DNA from: Deltaproteobacteria bacterium
Lineage (GTDB): Bacteria > Desulfobacterota > Desulfobulbia > Desulfobulbales > SURF-16
Length of the DNA: 34,070 nucleotides
Assembly: GCA_029933005.1 (NCBI GenBank)
Contig: JAOZOY010000013.1
Span: 18,061 to 52,130 of the forward strand
Reading direction: 5' to 3'
The notes under the pieces are model-generated. The model was given only the letters and a program-made list of their open reading frames with translations. It did no database searches and was not told the origin of the DNA. This document shows positions 4,507 through 33,537 of the stretch, piece by piece (position 1 is the first letter of the stretch; each line of letters starts with the position of its first letter). The translations under genes were made by a program, and so were the position numbers.

Positions 4507-4940
4507 TCTGGGCGAGGTGGAATTTTGTTGCAAAAATGTATTTTTTTGAAGTATGAATTACAAAATTGTAATTTTTGGATGAACCTTTAGTTGAGAGATT
4601 TATCGCCTGTGCTGCAGACATGCTCAATTTAGGAAGTTCTATTGCTGTTGATTGTCGGCTTGGCCGGTGGTGTCTGTTTCGCTGATGAGTTTTCCCGCCT
4701 GCCACTTTCCGGTCGCTTTGTCACCGTCGGCAAAAAAAATAGGTTCCAGAGCCGTCAAAGAGGTTGTTATTGAAATCTCAGATATATTTGCGGCCTGTTT
4801 TGCAGAATCCTGCCCTATTCGAGTTTTGTCGGGGATTATGTTCTGGATCACTTGAAATTATAACAATTTTTTTTATCATAGACTTGAGTGCATAAACTTT
4901 GGAACAGGATTCGAATAGCACGCTTTACTTGTGAGCCCTG
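4507..4940. other. Intergenic stretch with no supported gene
   Basis: The stretch is AT-rich and separates divergent transcription units (amtB to the left, the CarS-like fusion to the right). One short open frame on the minus strand (4639-4851, GTG start, 70 codons) contains FFADGDKATGKWQAG, faintly reminiscent of SnoaL/NTF2-like proteins. It has no ribosome binding site and lacks the rest of such a fold, so at best it is a decayed fragment. Confidence 0.3.
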
Positions 4941-4952
4941 AGGAGAAAAAAG

Positions 4953-6371
4953 GTGTTAACTGTCATCAAGGTGATTCTATTTCTGTTATGGGTCAATTTT
5001 TTGCCGCCCCTTGGCAACATGATCTGGGGGGAGCGTTTCAACCGACCCCTTGACCGTGGCCTGACCTGGGTTGACGGCCGCCCTGTCTTCGGCCGCCACA
5101 AAACTTACCGTGGCATTATCTGCAGCCTGCTTGGCGGTCTGGTGGTCTTTCCCATCCTCGGAACGGCTTGGTGGATTGCAGGTGTTGCCGCCCTGCTGGC
5201 CATGGCTGGTGATCTGTTATCAAGTTTTATCAAACGCCGTTTAAATGTCGCAAGCGGCAAGATCATTCCTGTCCTGGATCAGATCTTCGAATCCCTTTTT
5301 CCCCTGCTTTTTTTAAGCCGATTCCTGCTGTTGAGCTGGATGCAGATCGGTGTCATTCTTTTTTGTTTTGTCCCCCTTGCGTACGGTGGGTCCTGTTTTT
5401 GGAATTATATCTGTTACCGTCCTCCTTTAAAAAATTACCCGCGCTTGATCCGCTCCACGGTCCGGTTCCGCGAGTGGCGGGCCTGTCATACGCCCCTGGT
5501 CCGCTGGCAGACGTTCTTGAATCTTACAAGTTTTCTCTCAAACGATGTGTTTCTCAGCCGCTGTTTTAAACTGGCAGGTCTGTACGAGCAGGGTGTGAGG
5601 AATACCCTGGATGTCCGCCTGGAGGAAAAAATATTCCATTTTCCGAACCTGCCCGCAAAGTTTGACGGGTTTCGCATCCTGCTGTTGACCGATCTGCATC
5701 TGGACAGCGTGGATGACTTGACAGATCAACTCATCAGGCGGATTCGGGATGTCGAGGCTGATCTTGGCCTTGTGGGCGGAGATATCCGCATGATGACCTA
5801 TGGCCCCATAGCGCCATGCCTGCGGCAGCTCCGCCGTTTTTTGCCCCATGTCAAGACTCGCCACGGAATTCTGGGTGTCCTTGGCAACCATGATTGTATT
5901 GAAATGGTGCCGGATTTCGAGGAGGCCGGTTTGATTATGCTGATTAACGATTCCTGGGAGATTTCGAGAAACGGGGAGAAAATCTGGCTGGTGGGCGTGG
6001 ATGATCCGCATTACTATAAAACGGATGACGCCCGACAGGCCTTCCGGAACGTGCCGCAAAAGGCTTTTACCATCTTTCTGGCCCATTCTCCGGAGGCCTA
6101 CAGAAGTGCCGCCGCCTGCAGGGCGTCTCTCTATCTTTGCGGCCATACCCACGGAGGACAGATCTGTCTGCCCGACGGCAGACCTGTTATCACCAACAGC
6201 AGAGCACCCAGATTTACCGCGACCGACAGCTGGCAATATCAGGGGATGAGAGGATATACCAGCCGGGGTGCAGGGGCATCTGGTGTCCCCCTTCGTTTTA
6301 ACTGTCCGGGCGAAATCAGCCTCATTACTTTACGCAGAGGCGATAGTCCACCAGAACACTTAAAAAAATAA
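4953..6371 (+). CDS. Fusion of CDP-archaeol synthase-like membrane domain and calcineurin-type metallophosphoesterase
   Basis: This 472-residue protein joins two normally separate domains. Residues 1-155 are a hydrophobic CarS-like (DUF46) domain with NFLPPLGNMIW, PLDRG, then FGRHKTYRG near 47-54, and GDLLSSFIKRRL at 86-97. CarS activates an archaeal-type lipid phosphate with CTP. Residues 235-472 are a YkuE/LpxG-like metallophosphoesterase with metal ligands in TDLHLD (246-251), GGDI (275-278), GNHD (311-314), AHSPE (377-381) and GHTHGGQ (397-403). The start is GTG with AGGAG 7 bp upstream. A CDP-alcohol phosphatidyltransferase lies downstream on the same strand. Inference: a membrane enzyme of lipid headgroup or prenyl-lipid metabolism making or hydrolysing a phosphate or pyrophosphate intermediate. 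The substrate is unknown. Confidence 0.85.
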   Translation: MLTVIKVILFLLWVNFLPPLGNMIWGERFNRPLDRGLTWVDGRPVFGRHKTYRGIICSLLGGLVVFPILGTAWWIAGVAALLAMAGDLLSSFIKRRLNVASGKIIPVLDQIFESLFPLLFLSRFLLLSWMQIGVILFCFVPLAYGGSCFWNYICYRPPLKNYPRLIRSTVRFREWRACHTPLVRWQTFLNLTSFLSNDVFLSRCFKLAGLYEQGVRNTLDVRLEEKIFHFPNLPAKFDGFRILLLTDLHLDSVDDLTDQLIRRIRDVEADLGLVGGDIRMMTYGPIAPCLRQLRRFLPHVKTRHGILGVLGNHDCIEMVPDFEEAGLIMLINDSWEISRNGEKIWLVGVDDPHYYKTDDARQAFRNVPQKAFTIFLAHSPEAYRSAAACRASLYLCGHTHGGQICLPDGRPVITNSRAPRFTATDSWQYQGMRGYTSRGAGASGVPLRFNCPGEISLITLRRGDSPPEHLKK

Positions 6372-6399
6372 CCGAACTGAAGATCTTATCTCCAGTCCG
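6361..6399 (-). terminator. Intrinsic terminator of the former catalase gene
   Basis: Read on the minus strand, a 12-bp stem (6388-6399 with 6373-6384, two G-U pairs, AAG loop) is followed by GTTATTTTTTTA. It lies 40 bp after the stop codon of the catalase remnant. It overlaps the last codons of the convergent CarS-like fusion. Confidence 0.65.
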
Positions 6400-6438
6400 A
6401 TTATTTGATCTATTTCACCAAAACTTGCTGAGAAATAT

Positions 6439-6660
6439 TTAATACTGGGGAAATTCATCCAGTGATATTCCAACAGCTTCAGCAACGCCTTTCCCATAGG
6501 CAGGATCGGCCTTGAGACAGTTTCCGATATGGCGCATCTTGATCTCTTTCGGGGTATCGCCCATGGCTCTGGCCGTATTACTAAATAAAGCCTGCTGCTG
6601 CTCCTCACTCATAAGCTGAAAGAGTTTCGCCGGTTGACTGAAATAGTCATTTACACTAGA
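6439..6660 (-). pseudogene. Catalase C-terminal remnant
   Basis: The minus-strand frame encodes about 72 residues, beginning [20 protein letters not shown] and continuing through PKEI and [15 protein letters not shown]. These match the extreme C-terminus of monofunctional haem catalases, which are normally 480-550 residues. All catalytic and haem-binding parts are missing. The frame stays open upstream only because it reads through the two operator palindromes (6669-6700) to a GTG at 6720. The downstream terminator and upstream promoter are still present, so the gene seems to have lost its start and roughly its first 400 codons by an internal deletion. A functional peptide is unlikely. Confidence 0.8.
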
Positions 6661-6668
6661 TTTAGAAA

Positions 6669-6700
6669 TAAGATTTAATCTTAAATAAGATTTAATCTTA
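6669..6700. promoter_or_regulatory. Twin 7-1-7 palindromes, Fur/PerR-like operators
   Basis: TAAGATTTAATCTTA occurs twice (6669-6683 and 6686-6700), spaced 17 bp centre to centre. Each copy is a perfect 7-1-7 inverted repeat, the layout used by Fur-family regulators such as PerR. They lie immediately downstream of the -10 element of a promoter pointing at the catalase remnant, which is a typical repressor position. Assignment to PerR is inferred from layout and the catalase link, not from a known site in this organism. Confidence 0.6.
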
Positions 6701-6706
6701 AGTAGA

Positions 6707-6733
6707 ACTATATCATCCACGTGGGAATGTCAA
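6707..6733 (-). promoter_or_regulatory. Sigma-70-type promoter of the former catalase gene
   Basis: The minus strand has a consensus -35 TTGACA (6728-6733), a 15-bp spacer and TATAGT (6707-6712). The spacer is somewhat short. Transcription would start near 6700, inside the twin palindromes. Confidence 0.45.
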
Positions 6734-7224: not shown

Positions 7225-7773
7225 ATGAGACGATATATCAGATTTGTTCCAAACATTTTATCAACCTGTCGACTGGGCATTGCCTGTTATTTTCCCTTCT
7301 CGCCCGAGGAGAACTGGATCTGGCTCATCATTGCCGGCGGATGCAGTGATTTTCTTGACGGCTGGGTTGCGAGACGCTGGCAGGTGGCAACATGGCAGGG
7401 AGGACTGCTTGACGGAATCGCCGATAAGGCATTTATCCTCTCGGTCTTGATTACCCTGGTCTGTGGTGGCAGGTTTCCGGCCTGGTGGATTCCAGCCCTA
7501 ATCGCCCGTGATCTGACCGTGGCCTGTGCCGCAGGCTACGCCCTTTATAACCGGTTGTGGAAATCATTTCGCCGCATGGAGGCAAGATGGTCGGGCAAGC
7601 TTGCCACGGGTGGACAATTTCTTTTCCTCATTCTTGTTGTTCTCCTTCCTTTTCTTCCACCCATTGTTCTCTTTCTTGCAGTCCTTCTCAGTCTTTACGC
7701 CGCCTATGATTATGGTTCACTTTTTGTCCGGGCCCTGCGTGAGCGGGCGGAACATGAGGTTCATTTTCCGTAG
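7225..7773 (+). CDS. CDP-alcohol phosphatidyltransferase family protein
   Basis: This integral membrane enzyme transfers a phospho-alcohol group from a CDP-linked lipid or alcohol to an acceptor. The 182 residues contain the complete family signature D-x2-DG-x2-AR-x8-G-x3-D-x3-D, with D42, D45, G46, A49, R50, G59, D63 and D67. About five hydrophobic segments follow. The length suits the PgsA/Pgp-synthase group, but the acceptor cannot be deduced. It is about 850 bp downstream of the CarS-like/phosphoesterase fusion on the same strand, and the catalase remnant lies between. A shared lipid-headgroup role is possible, although co-transcription is unlikely across that gap. Confidence 0.88.
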   Translation: MRRYIRFVPNILSTCRLGIACYFPFSPEENWIWLIIAGGCSDFLDGWVARRWQVATWQGGLLDGIADKAFILSVLITLVCGGRFPAWWIPALIARDLTVACAAGYALYNRLWKSFRRMEARWSGKLATGGQFLFLILVVLLPFLPPIVLFLAVLLSLYAAYDYGSLFVRALRERAEHEVHFP

Positions 7774-30912: not shown

Positions 30913-33537
30913 ATGATTTCGCGCCATGACAAGAGAAACTTCAGGAGACTGAGGACACATGCCAATCCCCAGCAGGCCCTGATCATCATCCTCTGCTGCC
31001 TGGGTCTCTTCATCACACCCGGTGCCGCCCAAGCCATCGCAATCGACTGGAACGCTGCTGTCAGCGGCAACTGGGGCACCGCCGGCAACTGGAATCCGGT
31101 TGCGGTCCCAGGTACGACCGATGACGTCTTGATCAGTGCGACAGGTAATCCTTACACTGTCACGCTGGATTTGAATCCCACTGTCAACAGCTTCATCCTG
31201 AACTCGGCCGATGCCCAGTTCATATCCTGGAACAAAACTATCAATATCTATGGAGACAGCTGGATTCAGGCTGGCAAGGCCAATCTCTACGGTACCACCT
31301 GGAATGGTAATCTATTCAACGCCGGAGAACTGACGCTGCAGAGCAATACCACCATCAACGGCGGCCTGCTCAACAGCGGCAGCCTGATCATGCCCTCCGG
31401 TGCCAACGTCATTTTTTCTGGCAGCGTCGATAACAGCGGAGATATCACCATCGATTCCGGCAGCTCTGTCACCATTTCCGGCGGCACCTTCAACATGGCC
31501 GGCGGCGCCACCTTCGAGGGAGGCGGCAGTATCAACGTGCGCAGCAACGCCAACCTGGTTCTGGCCGGGGCTTACAGCAACGGCGCCTCGCCGCTGCTCA
31601 TCGCCGATAACGATACCCAGGTCAGCGGTCCCGGCACCCTGACCAACTCCTCCACCCTGACTCTGGCCAATGGCGGCGCCATCAACACAGCTCTGGTCAA
31701 CAACGGGGTGATGGAAGTGCAGGGGGACAGTTATTCTGCCTGGGTCCTTGATATCGGTGGCCCGGCCACCAATAACGGCACTATCAACCTCAATTCTTAT
31801 AATAACAATACATCGCTGGACAACCCGGTCCTGAATTTTCATCAGGGCCTGGTCAACAACGGCACCCTGGTCATGCGCACCGGCGGTAACGGCACCGGAA
31901 GCAACAGCACAACACTCTCCGGCGGCACCTCGGGCACCGTCTCCAACAGCGTCGGCGGCACCATCGACATCCAGGCCGGCGGCAACCGCTACATCAAGGC
32001 TCATCTGAACAACCAGGGTACCATCGAAATTGCCGCTACCACCCGTTTTGAGCGCAACAACGGTGACTACATCAATGACGGCAGTATTAATATCAACGCC
32101 GGCGGTGATCTGAATGTATCTGCCATCCATAGTTGGAGCGGCAGCGGTAACCTCACTGGCAACGGCGGTAACGTTATCTTCTCCGGCAACGGCTCCAGCG
32201 CCGGCAGCAGCTGGAACAACGGCGGTGATCTGCGTCTCAACAGCGGTAATCTCACCCTGCAAAGTTTCCAGAACATGGCCAACACCGGCAGCATAGACGT
32301 GGAAGACGGCGTACTCTGGTTCAATTCCAACGGCAGCTTCGATAACAGCGGAGATATCACCATCGATTCCGGCAGCTCTGTCACCATTTCCGGCGGCACC
32401 TTCAACATGGCCGGCGGCGCCACCTTCGAGGGAGGCGGCAGTATCAACGTGCGCAGCAACGCCAACCTGGTTCTGGCCGGGGCTTACAGCAACGGCGCCT
32501 CGCCGCTGCTCATCGCCGATAACGATACCCAGGTCAGCGGTCCCGGCACCCTGACCAACTCCTCCACCCTGACTCTGGCCAATGGCGGCGCCATCAACAC
32601 AGCTCTGGTCAACAACGGGGTGATGGAAGTGCAGGGGGACAGTTATTCTGCCTGGGTCCTTGATATCGGTGGCCCGGCCACCAATAACGGCACTATCAAC
32701 CTCAATTCTTATAATAACAATACATCGCTGGACAACCCGGTCCTGAATTTTCATCAGGGCCTGGTCAACAACGGCACCCTGGTCATGCGCACCGGCGGTA
32801 ACGGCACCGGAAGCAACAGCACTACACTGAACATCGGCACCGGTAGCGTGCTGGTCAATCAGGGCATGGGGCATATCATCATGGAGGGCGGCGGCAACCG
32901 CATCATCAACGGCACGGTGGCCAACAAGGCCAAACTGTCTGTCGCCACCAACATCACTATGGGTACCGCCGATTCCGACCACACCAACAGCGGCACCCTG
33001 ATCCTGCTGGACGACAGCACGGCGACCATCCTGGGCAATTCCTTTACCAACCAGGCGGGCGGCTTGCTGGGCGGCAACGGCACCTTCAATGCCAGCACCT
33101 CAGGCATCGTTAACGAGGGCACCGTGGCTCCTGGAGAATCTCCGGGCCTGCTGACCATTACCGGCGACTTTATTCAGAGAGCCGGCGGCATACTCGACAT
33201 TGAACTCAGCGGACTGATTGCCGGCAGCGAATTCGACCGCCTGACGGTTAGCGGTACCGCCAACCTGGCAGGGATCCTGAACGTCAGCCTGCTGGACGGT
33301 TTCGACCCCATCCTGGGCAACAGCTTCGATTTTCTCCTTGCAGGCAATATTCTGGGAGACTTCGATCAGGTGCTGCTACCAAGCCTCTCCGGCAAAATTT
33401 TCGACCTCAGCTTTACCGACACAACCGCCAGCTTGACGGTTGTGGCATCGCCGGTACCACTGCCGCCCAGCCTGTATATGTTTGGTTTAGCCTTGCTGGC
33501 CCTTGGCGCGTACCGGACGCGGAAGACAGTGGGGTAA
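30913..33537 (+). CDS. Large PEP-CTERM (VPLPA-type) surface protein with beta-helix repeats
   Basis: The 874 residues begin with a long signal peptide (hydrophobic about 23-35, cleavage near AAQA). A first module follows (GNWGTAGNWNPVAVPGTTDD), seen in many bacterial surface beta-helix proteins. Many G/N/T-rich repeats follow (NNGTL, NSGDI types), then a typical C-terminal unit NEGTVAPGESPGLLTITGDF. The end is a sorting signal: VPLPPSLYMFG, a hydrophobic helix and RTRK, matching the VPLPA/PEP-CTERM type processed by an exosortase. No exosortase gene lies in the window. AAGGAAAGAG lies before the ATG. Base composition is visibly GC-richer than the AT-rich flanks. A 484-bp block is duplicated inside the gene. 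Likely role: secreted or surface/biofilm matrix protein. Confidence 0.88.
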   Translation: MISRHDKRNFRRLRTHANPQQALIIILCCLGLFITPGAAQAIAIDWNAAVSGNWGTAGNWNPVAVPGTTDDVLISATGNPYTVTLDLNPTVNSFILNSADAQFISWNKTINIYGDSWIQAGKANLYGTTWNGNLFNAGELTLQSNTTINGGLLNSGSLIMPSGANVIFSGSVDNSGDITIDSGSSVTISGGTFNMAGGATFEGGGSINVRSNANLVLAGAYSNGASPLLIADNDTQVSGPGTLTNSSTLTLANGGAINTALVNNGVMEVQGDSYSAWVLDIGGPATNNGTINLNSYNNNTSLDNPVLNFHQGLVNNGTLVMRTGGNGTGSNSTTLSGGTSGTVSNSVGGTIDIQAGGNRYIKAHLNNQGTIEIAATTRFERNNGDYINDGSININAGGDLNVSAIHSWSGSGNLTGNGGNVIFSGNGSSAGSSWNNGGDLRLNSGNLTLQSFQNMANTGSIDVEDGVLWFNSNGSFDNSGDITIDSGSSVTISGGTFNMAGGATFEGGGSINVRSNANLVLAGAYSNGASPLLIADNDTQVSGPGTLTNSSTLTLANGGAINTALVNNGVMEVQGDSYSAWVLDIGGPATNNGTINLNSYNNNTSLDNPVLNFHQGLVNNGTLVMRTGGNGTGSNSTTLNIGTGSVLVNQGMGHIIMEGGGNRIINGTVANKAKLSVATNITMGTADSDHTNSGTLILLDDSTATILGNSFTNQAGGLLGGNGTFNASTSGIVNEGTVAPGESPGLLTITGDFIQRAGGILDIELSGLIAGSEFDRLTVSGTANLAGILNVSLLDGFDPILGNSFDFLLAGNILGDFDQVLLPSLSGKIFDLSFTDTTASLTVVASPVPLPPSLYMFGLALLALGAYRTRKTVG
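31427..31910 (+). repeat. 484-bp internal direct repeat, copy 1
   Basis: This block appears identical by eye to 32339-32822, offset by 912 bp (304 codons, in frame). Flanking codons on both sides have diverged while keeping a similar repeat pattern (SGSVDNSGDI against NGSFDNSGDI). Confidence 0.9.
32339..32822 (+). repeat. 484-bp internal direct repeat, copy 2
   Basis: Second copy of the block at 31427-31910. Even synonymous positions match by eye, which implies recent duplication or gene conversion. It encodes about 161 residues of the beta-helix region. Confidence 0.9.

Follow-up and report, generated by a model that had tools for sequence, protein, structure and literature searches.

Background

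Much of phospholipid synthesis draws on CTP-activated lipids, and lipid monophosphates are the compounds that CarS-type enzymes activate with CTP. The wider CTP-transferase superfamily also includes CTP-dependent kinases (the dolichol and yeast diacylglycerol kinases). In the phosphatidylglycerol and archaetidylinositol pathways, the CDP-lipid synthase and the phosphatase stand two steps apart; PgpA removes the extra phosphate in phosphatidylglycerol synthesis, and enzymes of unrelated fold often take the place of the phosphatases in such steps.

In the crystal structure of the archaeal CDP-archaeol synthase CarS, the active site is cytoplasmic (PMC9385802), and in the CdsA of Thermotoga (TmCdsA), Asp219 and Asp249 hold the Mg/K centre (PMC7018664). 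Among phosphoesterases, LpxG acts on a lipid diphosphate and frees the lipid monophosphate (PMC4807358), while UpsH, with a cytoplasm-facing enzymatic domain, acts on a pyrophosphate-linked lipid to yield the monophosphate (PMC11898649). Our literature search found no report joining CDP-archaeol synthase with a phosphoesterase, metallophosphoesterase or PHP domain. Here, we describe such a protein, a CarS-like domain fused to a calcineurin-type metallophosphoesterase (MPE), encoded in a 34,070-nucleotide window (the whole stretch of DNA analysed) of a Desulfobacterota genome.

Results

The fusion gene occupies positions 4953-6371 of the forward strand, as indicated by the open frame, Pfam matches and full-length conserved homologues. 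The frame encodes 472 amino acids, is free of internal stops and begins with a GTG codon, and the ribosome-binding-site-like GAGGAGA (4940-4946, forward strand; AGGAG type) read from the sequence lies ~ 7 bases upstream. A terminator-like hairpin of 19 pairs (6366-6406, unstranded; a consensus match from a pattern scan) sits at the stop codon, and the fusion gene is therefore probably monocistronic. No RNA element was found in its flanks.

The first-pass annotation had proposed a CarS-like N-terminal domain, and both sequence and fold comparisons bear this out. PF01864 matches residues 5-161 (4965-5435, forward strand) at 59.2 bits, where the gathering score is 22, and in the phmmer search CDP-archaeol synthase structure 5GUF (E 6.6e-9) was the one PDB relative to reach a significant E-value. 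In the AF2 model of the whole protein (mean pLDDT 69, pTM 0.56), the best fold match of the N-terminal domain was again 5GUF (E 3.8e-6, TM 0.70 by target). The motifs P-x-D, G-x-HKT-x-RG, GDxxxSFxKRR and DQ are all conserved in the alignment of fusions. HKT (residues 49-51; 5097-5105, forward strand), in the first cytoplasmic loop, matches GKT of archaeal CarS in alignments of 32 fusions and stand-alone forms and with 5GUF. GDxxxSFxKRR (residues 86-96; 5208-5240, forward strand), conserved across the fusions, includes the first metal-binding Asp position, D87, which we infer to be equivalent to Asp219 of TmCdsA (PMC7018664).

The second metal-ligand position differs. Where archaeal CarS has DQxD, sequence comparison places DQxxE here (residues 109-113; 5277-5291, forward strand), so that the second Asp is replaced by Glu one residue later. 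In every protein of this clade in which the motif was read, position +3 is usually hydrophobic and +4 is Glu (one protein reads DHxxE), and the pattern is absent from archaeal CarS (5GUF) and from DQxD-type bacterial genes. By this motif, the CarS half is a member of a bacterial subfamily marked by DQxxE. It stands apart from the archaeal CDP-archaeol synthase equivalog both in the motif and in score (NCBIfam PRK04032, 71.2 bits against a cut-off of 148).

The second half was correctly read as a complete calcineurin-type phosphoesterase. The domain spans residues 230-462 (5640-6338, forward strand), PF00149 matches residues 240-401 with 35 bits (cut-off 21.5), and the metal-ligand motifs DxH (247-249), GGD (275-277), GNHD (311-314), HSPE (378-381) and GHTHGGQ (397-403) are present. 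Across 19 aligned homologues, no change is seen at D247, H249, D277, N312, H313, D314 or H378, nor at H398 and H400 of GHTH; the profile together with DxH, GD, GNHD, H and GHxH marks the calcineurin type, with motif residues invariant or nearly so. Fold matches of this domain in the AF2 model were Mre11-type phosphoesterases and a 5'-nucleotidase. The best NCBIfam match was YaeI (72.9 bits, below its cut-off of 188), and the LpxG equivalog scored 68.7 bits against 350; nor does the genome lack both LpxH and LpxI, as in the case expected for LpxG, since LpxI is present. Beyond the window, the same contig (G000:C59) encodes a second, distantly related calcineurin-type phosphoesterase (L075:5559-6278, reverse strand).

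The two domains are joined by a linker (residues 162-229; 5436-5639, forward strand) with a conserved YPRxxxxxVRxREWRxC motif, no transmembrane segment (hydropathy maximum 0.75) and low model confidence (pLDDT below 50 over residues 155-193). Structure prediction, suggested earlier as a view of the domain interface, matched the fold of each domain, but with such linker confidence the interface itself is not readable.

An important question is whether the fusion is genuine or an artifact of assembly. Scanning a single genome for each species, we found 20 relatives at 50-89% identity, almost all with the same fusion and from Desulfobulbaceae-type MAGs; the fusion itself recurs in 18-19 other genome contigs in this identity range, a few of the copies being clipped by contig ends. 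It is also present in 22 of 395 sampled Desulfobacterota genomes, the 22 being spread over seven family codes and each of them having been checked with separate CarS and MPE profiles. This recurrence excludes an assembly artifact and confirms the fusion that the first-pass annotation had reported. The fused proteins form one group in the CarS tree (SH-aLRT 99; a quick method, with several long branches flagged). Judged by sequence comparison, the fusion arose once and is ancient and conserved in Desulfobacterota. The single broken copy (L020) is split between the domains into two overlapping frames, owing to a frameshift or else to faulty assembly.

Hydropathy fits five transmembrane helices in the CarS half. 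Positive charges are concentrated in loops 30-52 (+5), 93-108 (+4) and 155-200 (+8), with none in 66-73 and 125-129, and an N-out/C-in orientation is therefore predicted. The stand-alone MPE of Methylobacterium nodulans and the paired PHP proteins (see below) showed no transmembrane or signal-like segment by hydropathy. Given a C-in CarS half, a linker without a transmembrane segment and soluble-looking partners, both active sites of the fusion protein are predicted to face the cytoplasm. A periplasmic (Tat-type) MPE was rejected because the linker contains no transmembrane segment.

The PgsA-like CDP-alcohol phosphatidyltransferase gene at 7225-7773, proposed earlier as the next enzyme, lies ~ 850 bp downstream, behind the hairpin and a catalase C-terminal remnant (6439-6720, reverse strand; Catalase-rel 75.5 bits, the rest of the gene missing), and blastp found no copy of it in any collected related locus. 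An operon with this gene was rejected on these grounds, and the proposal is not supported. We found no conserved neighbours of the fusion that point to a lipid; the candidate conserved neighbourhood proved to be lineage-specific synteny (radical SAM, RpoD-like, SpeA-like and other genes). Farther along the window, an 874-aa surface-type protein (30913-33537, forward strand) with a PEP-CTERM-like end and no Pfam match contains two apparently identical long internal repeats, which suggests a recent internal duplication.

The association with phosphoesterases extends beyond the fusion. Every DQxxE protein found in the 395-genome Desulfobacterota sample is tied to a phosphoesterase, with a fused MPE in 22 genomes and a 3' PHP-domain gene in 14, although these counts represent related genomes rather than independent events. 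The 14 separate DQxxE proteins have ~ 165-200 residues (some open frames are longer) and come from six other family codes. The PHP gene follows directly 3' on the same strand in 13 of them, at distances from an overlap to 131 bp; in the remaining genome (G228) it lies ~ 1.5 kb downstream of the CarS gene, beyond an inserted PIN-like gene (L076:9121-9510). The PHP partner scores 31.6 bits for PHP_C (cut-off 21.3) and 22.4 for PHP, under its 26.4, and has conserved HxH, NH, E, HP and SDAH motifs. No genome carried both the fused and the PHP-paired form, as expected by chance at these numbers.

Phyla beyond Desulfobacterota were reached through plasmid records only. On two alphaproteobacterial plasmids, of Methylobacterium nodulans and Bosea, MPE and CarS genes adjoin in convergent (tail-to-tail) orientation, separated by 12 bp or sharing an overlap of 7, and these MPEs are 41-44% identical to the fused MPE, with homology extending into the linker. 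In the CarS tree, PHP- and MPE-paired forms fall in the clade of the fusion. One further member of the DQxxE clade, L148 on a betaproteobacterial Variovorax plasmid, lacks both partners within 4 kb, and nothing else on that plasmid matches the fused protein. Both phosphoesterase families occur also without CarS, and the MPE and PHP pairings therefore look like independent recruitment. At L132:1474-3025 (reverse strand; genome G083), a member of the PHP subfamily that elsewhere pairs with CarS has no CarS gene with it; its neighbour is a CDP-alcohol phosphatidyltransferase-like (PssA-like) gene.

A minority of the Desulfobacterota PF01864 genes retains DQxD and forms a separate clade outside that of the fusion (L085-L087, L092, L155 and L156). 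None of these six has an MPE or PHP partner within the fetched flanks, and three sit with PssA-like and Psd genes; a UbiA-type prenyltransferase is also present in two of those three loci, the ones fetched far enough. In one Desulfobacterota family (f79; L155:2632-5648, reverse strand; L156:1225-4241, reverse strand; L092:2-2070, forward strand, with UbiA outside the fetched part), the UbiA-type prenyltransferase, a CDP-alcohol phosphatidyltransferase (PssA- or archaetidylserine synthase-like), phosphatidylserine decarboxylase and DQxD CarS share one strand. The run has the order of an archaeal phospholipid pathway, yet without GGGP synthase.

Discussion

Three arrangements thus link a bacterial CarS subfamily with an altered metal-ligand motif to phosphoesterases that belong to two unrelated folds, which points to a coupled reaction on lipid phosphates. 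The coupled lipid step that the first-pass annotation had put forward as an idea is strengthened by the independent pairings with a 3' PHP gene and a convergent MPE gene, and the pattern suggests a two-step lipid-phosphate reaction. Such a reaction would be kept although the bacterium has its own CdsA, PgpA and LpxI. At somewhat short of even odds, DQxxE CarS-like proteins have a re-built metal centre and an obligate phosphoesterase pair (MPE fused, MPE adjacent or PHP adjacent) and serve an undescribed pathway of lipid-phosphate salvage or remodelling at the inner leaflet. The pairing offers a testable hypothesis for genes annotated only as CDP-archaeol synthase, metallophosphoesterase or PHP protein.

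For the fusion, our leading reading, with a probability of roughly 0.35, is an inner-membrane enzyme with two activities, the MPE acting first and the CarS half second. The MPE would cleave a pyrophosphate-linked lipid (lipid-PP-X) at its phosphoanhydride, giving a lipid monophosphate onto which the CarS-like domain would then move CMP from CTP; the resulting CDP-lipid would serve head-group attachment, and both steps would run at the cytoplasmic face of the inner leaflet. We infer the topology, catalysis by both halves and the order of steps, the order from chemical reasoning only: MPE first is favoured because LpxG and UpsH, the closest characterised MPEs by profile or literature, release lipid monophosphate, which CarS-type enzymes activate. 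Counting against this reading are the altered metal-ligand motif, the LpxG score far under its cut-off, the finding that no conserved neighbour of the fusion points to a lipid, and the Variovorax member L148 with neither partner nearby. Ordinary CdsA, PgpA and LpxI are encoded elsewhere in the genome, so no house-keeping step is left for the fusion to fill. Roles as the missing CDP-DAG synthase or the missing lipid-A hydrolase were rejected given CdsA and LpxI, respectively, and that of a missing PGP phosphatase is weakened by PgpA.

The phosphoesterase could instead act on the product side. CarS would make a CDP-lipid, an unlinked CDP-alcohol phosphatidyltransferase would add a head group carrying a phosphate, and this extra phosphate would be removed by the MPE or PHP protein; the use of MPE or PHP would then fit replacement by unrelated folds, and the PgsA-like gene 850 bp downstream and the PssA-like neighbour of the PHP relative in G083 point the same way. 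However, PgpA is already encoded in the genome, the related loci showed no copy of the PgsA-like neighbour, and joining steps one and three without step two would be unusual, which leaves this arrangement unlikely.

Equally doubtful is a regulatory protein, in which a non-catalytic CarS half would be a membrane anchor or a CTP or lipid sensor controlling the phosphoesterase. If Asp249 of TmCdsA is taken as the last D of the CDS signature KDX5PGHGGX2DRXD, a metal-binding position would be altered in DQxxE, and the CarS half may no longer make CDP-lipid. Against this, HKT, GD, SFxKRR and the new Glu are conserved across the fusions, unlike decay, and stand-alone DQxxE proteins exist too.

We regard turnover of CDP-lipid as quite improbable. 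Here the MPE would hydrolyse CarS-made CDP-lipid to lipid phosphate and CMP and limit its level, for which the action of LpxG on a nucleoside-diphosphate lipid is a direct analogue; the outcome would nevertheless be a CTP-wasting cycle within one protein, and we know of no precedent for this. A CTP-dependent kinase and phosphatase pair, in which the altered CarS half moves phosphate and the phosphoesterase reverses the step, has the CTP-dependent kinases of the superfamily and the active-site change to DQxxE in its favour, but is very unlikely, the sequence being much nearer to CarS than to CTP transferases at large (PF01148, CdsA, 15 bits against a cut-off of 24). Archaeal-type isoprenoid ether or prenyl lipid synthesis, raised earlier, has the CarS family name in its favour but is not supported and is extremely unlikely: GGGP synthase (PF01884) is absent from the genome (96.5% complete), the score falls short of the CarS equivalog and the metal motif is not DQxD.

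Compared with known systems, the fusion lies outside CDP-archaeol synthase, LpxG and YaeI proper, although it may do work like theirs. LpxG of Chlamydia, a UDP-2,3-diacylglucosamine pyrophosphatase, resembles the fused MPE in sequence (68.7 bits), being likewise membrane-associated and of calcineurin type, with DxH, GD, GNHD and GHxH motifs; it has no CarS domain, the fused MPE scores far under its equivalog cut-off of 350 with GGDxRM in place of GDxxDR, and the genome of the fusion has LpxI. YaeI/YkuE-type MPEs and UpsH of B. subtilis, a cytosol-facing MPE that releases undecaprenyl phosphate, also have no CarS domain; YkuE and UpsH are likened here by description. The polytopic dual Sec/Tat YkuE-like MPEs share the order of membrane helices followed by a calcineurin-type MPE, but their helices number four, a twin-arginine motif precedes the fourth, and their MPE is exported (PMC5449189), whereas the fusion has five CarS helices and a linker without a transmembrane segment. 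With archaeal CarS (Aeropyrum pernix, 5GUF), it shares the five-helix fold, P-x-D, G-x-x-KT, GDxxxSFxKRR, D-Q and a cytoplasmic active site (predicted in the fusion); it differs in a score below the equivalog cut-off, in its host, a bacterium without GGGP synthase, in DQxxE for DQxD and in the MPE joined on.
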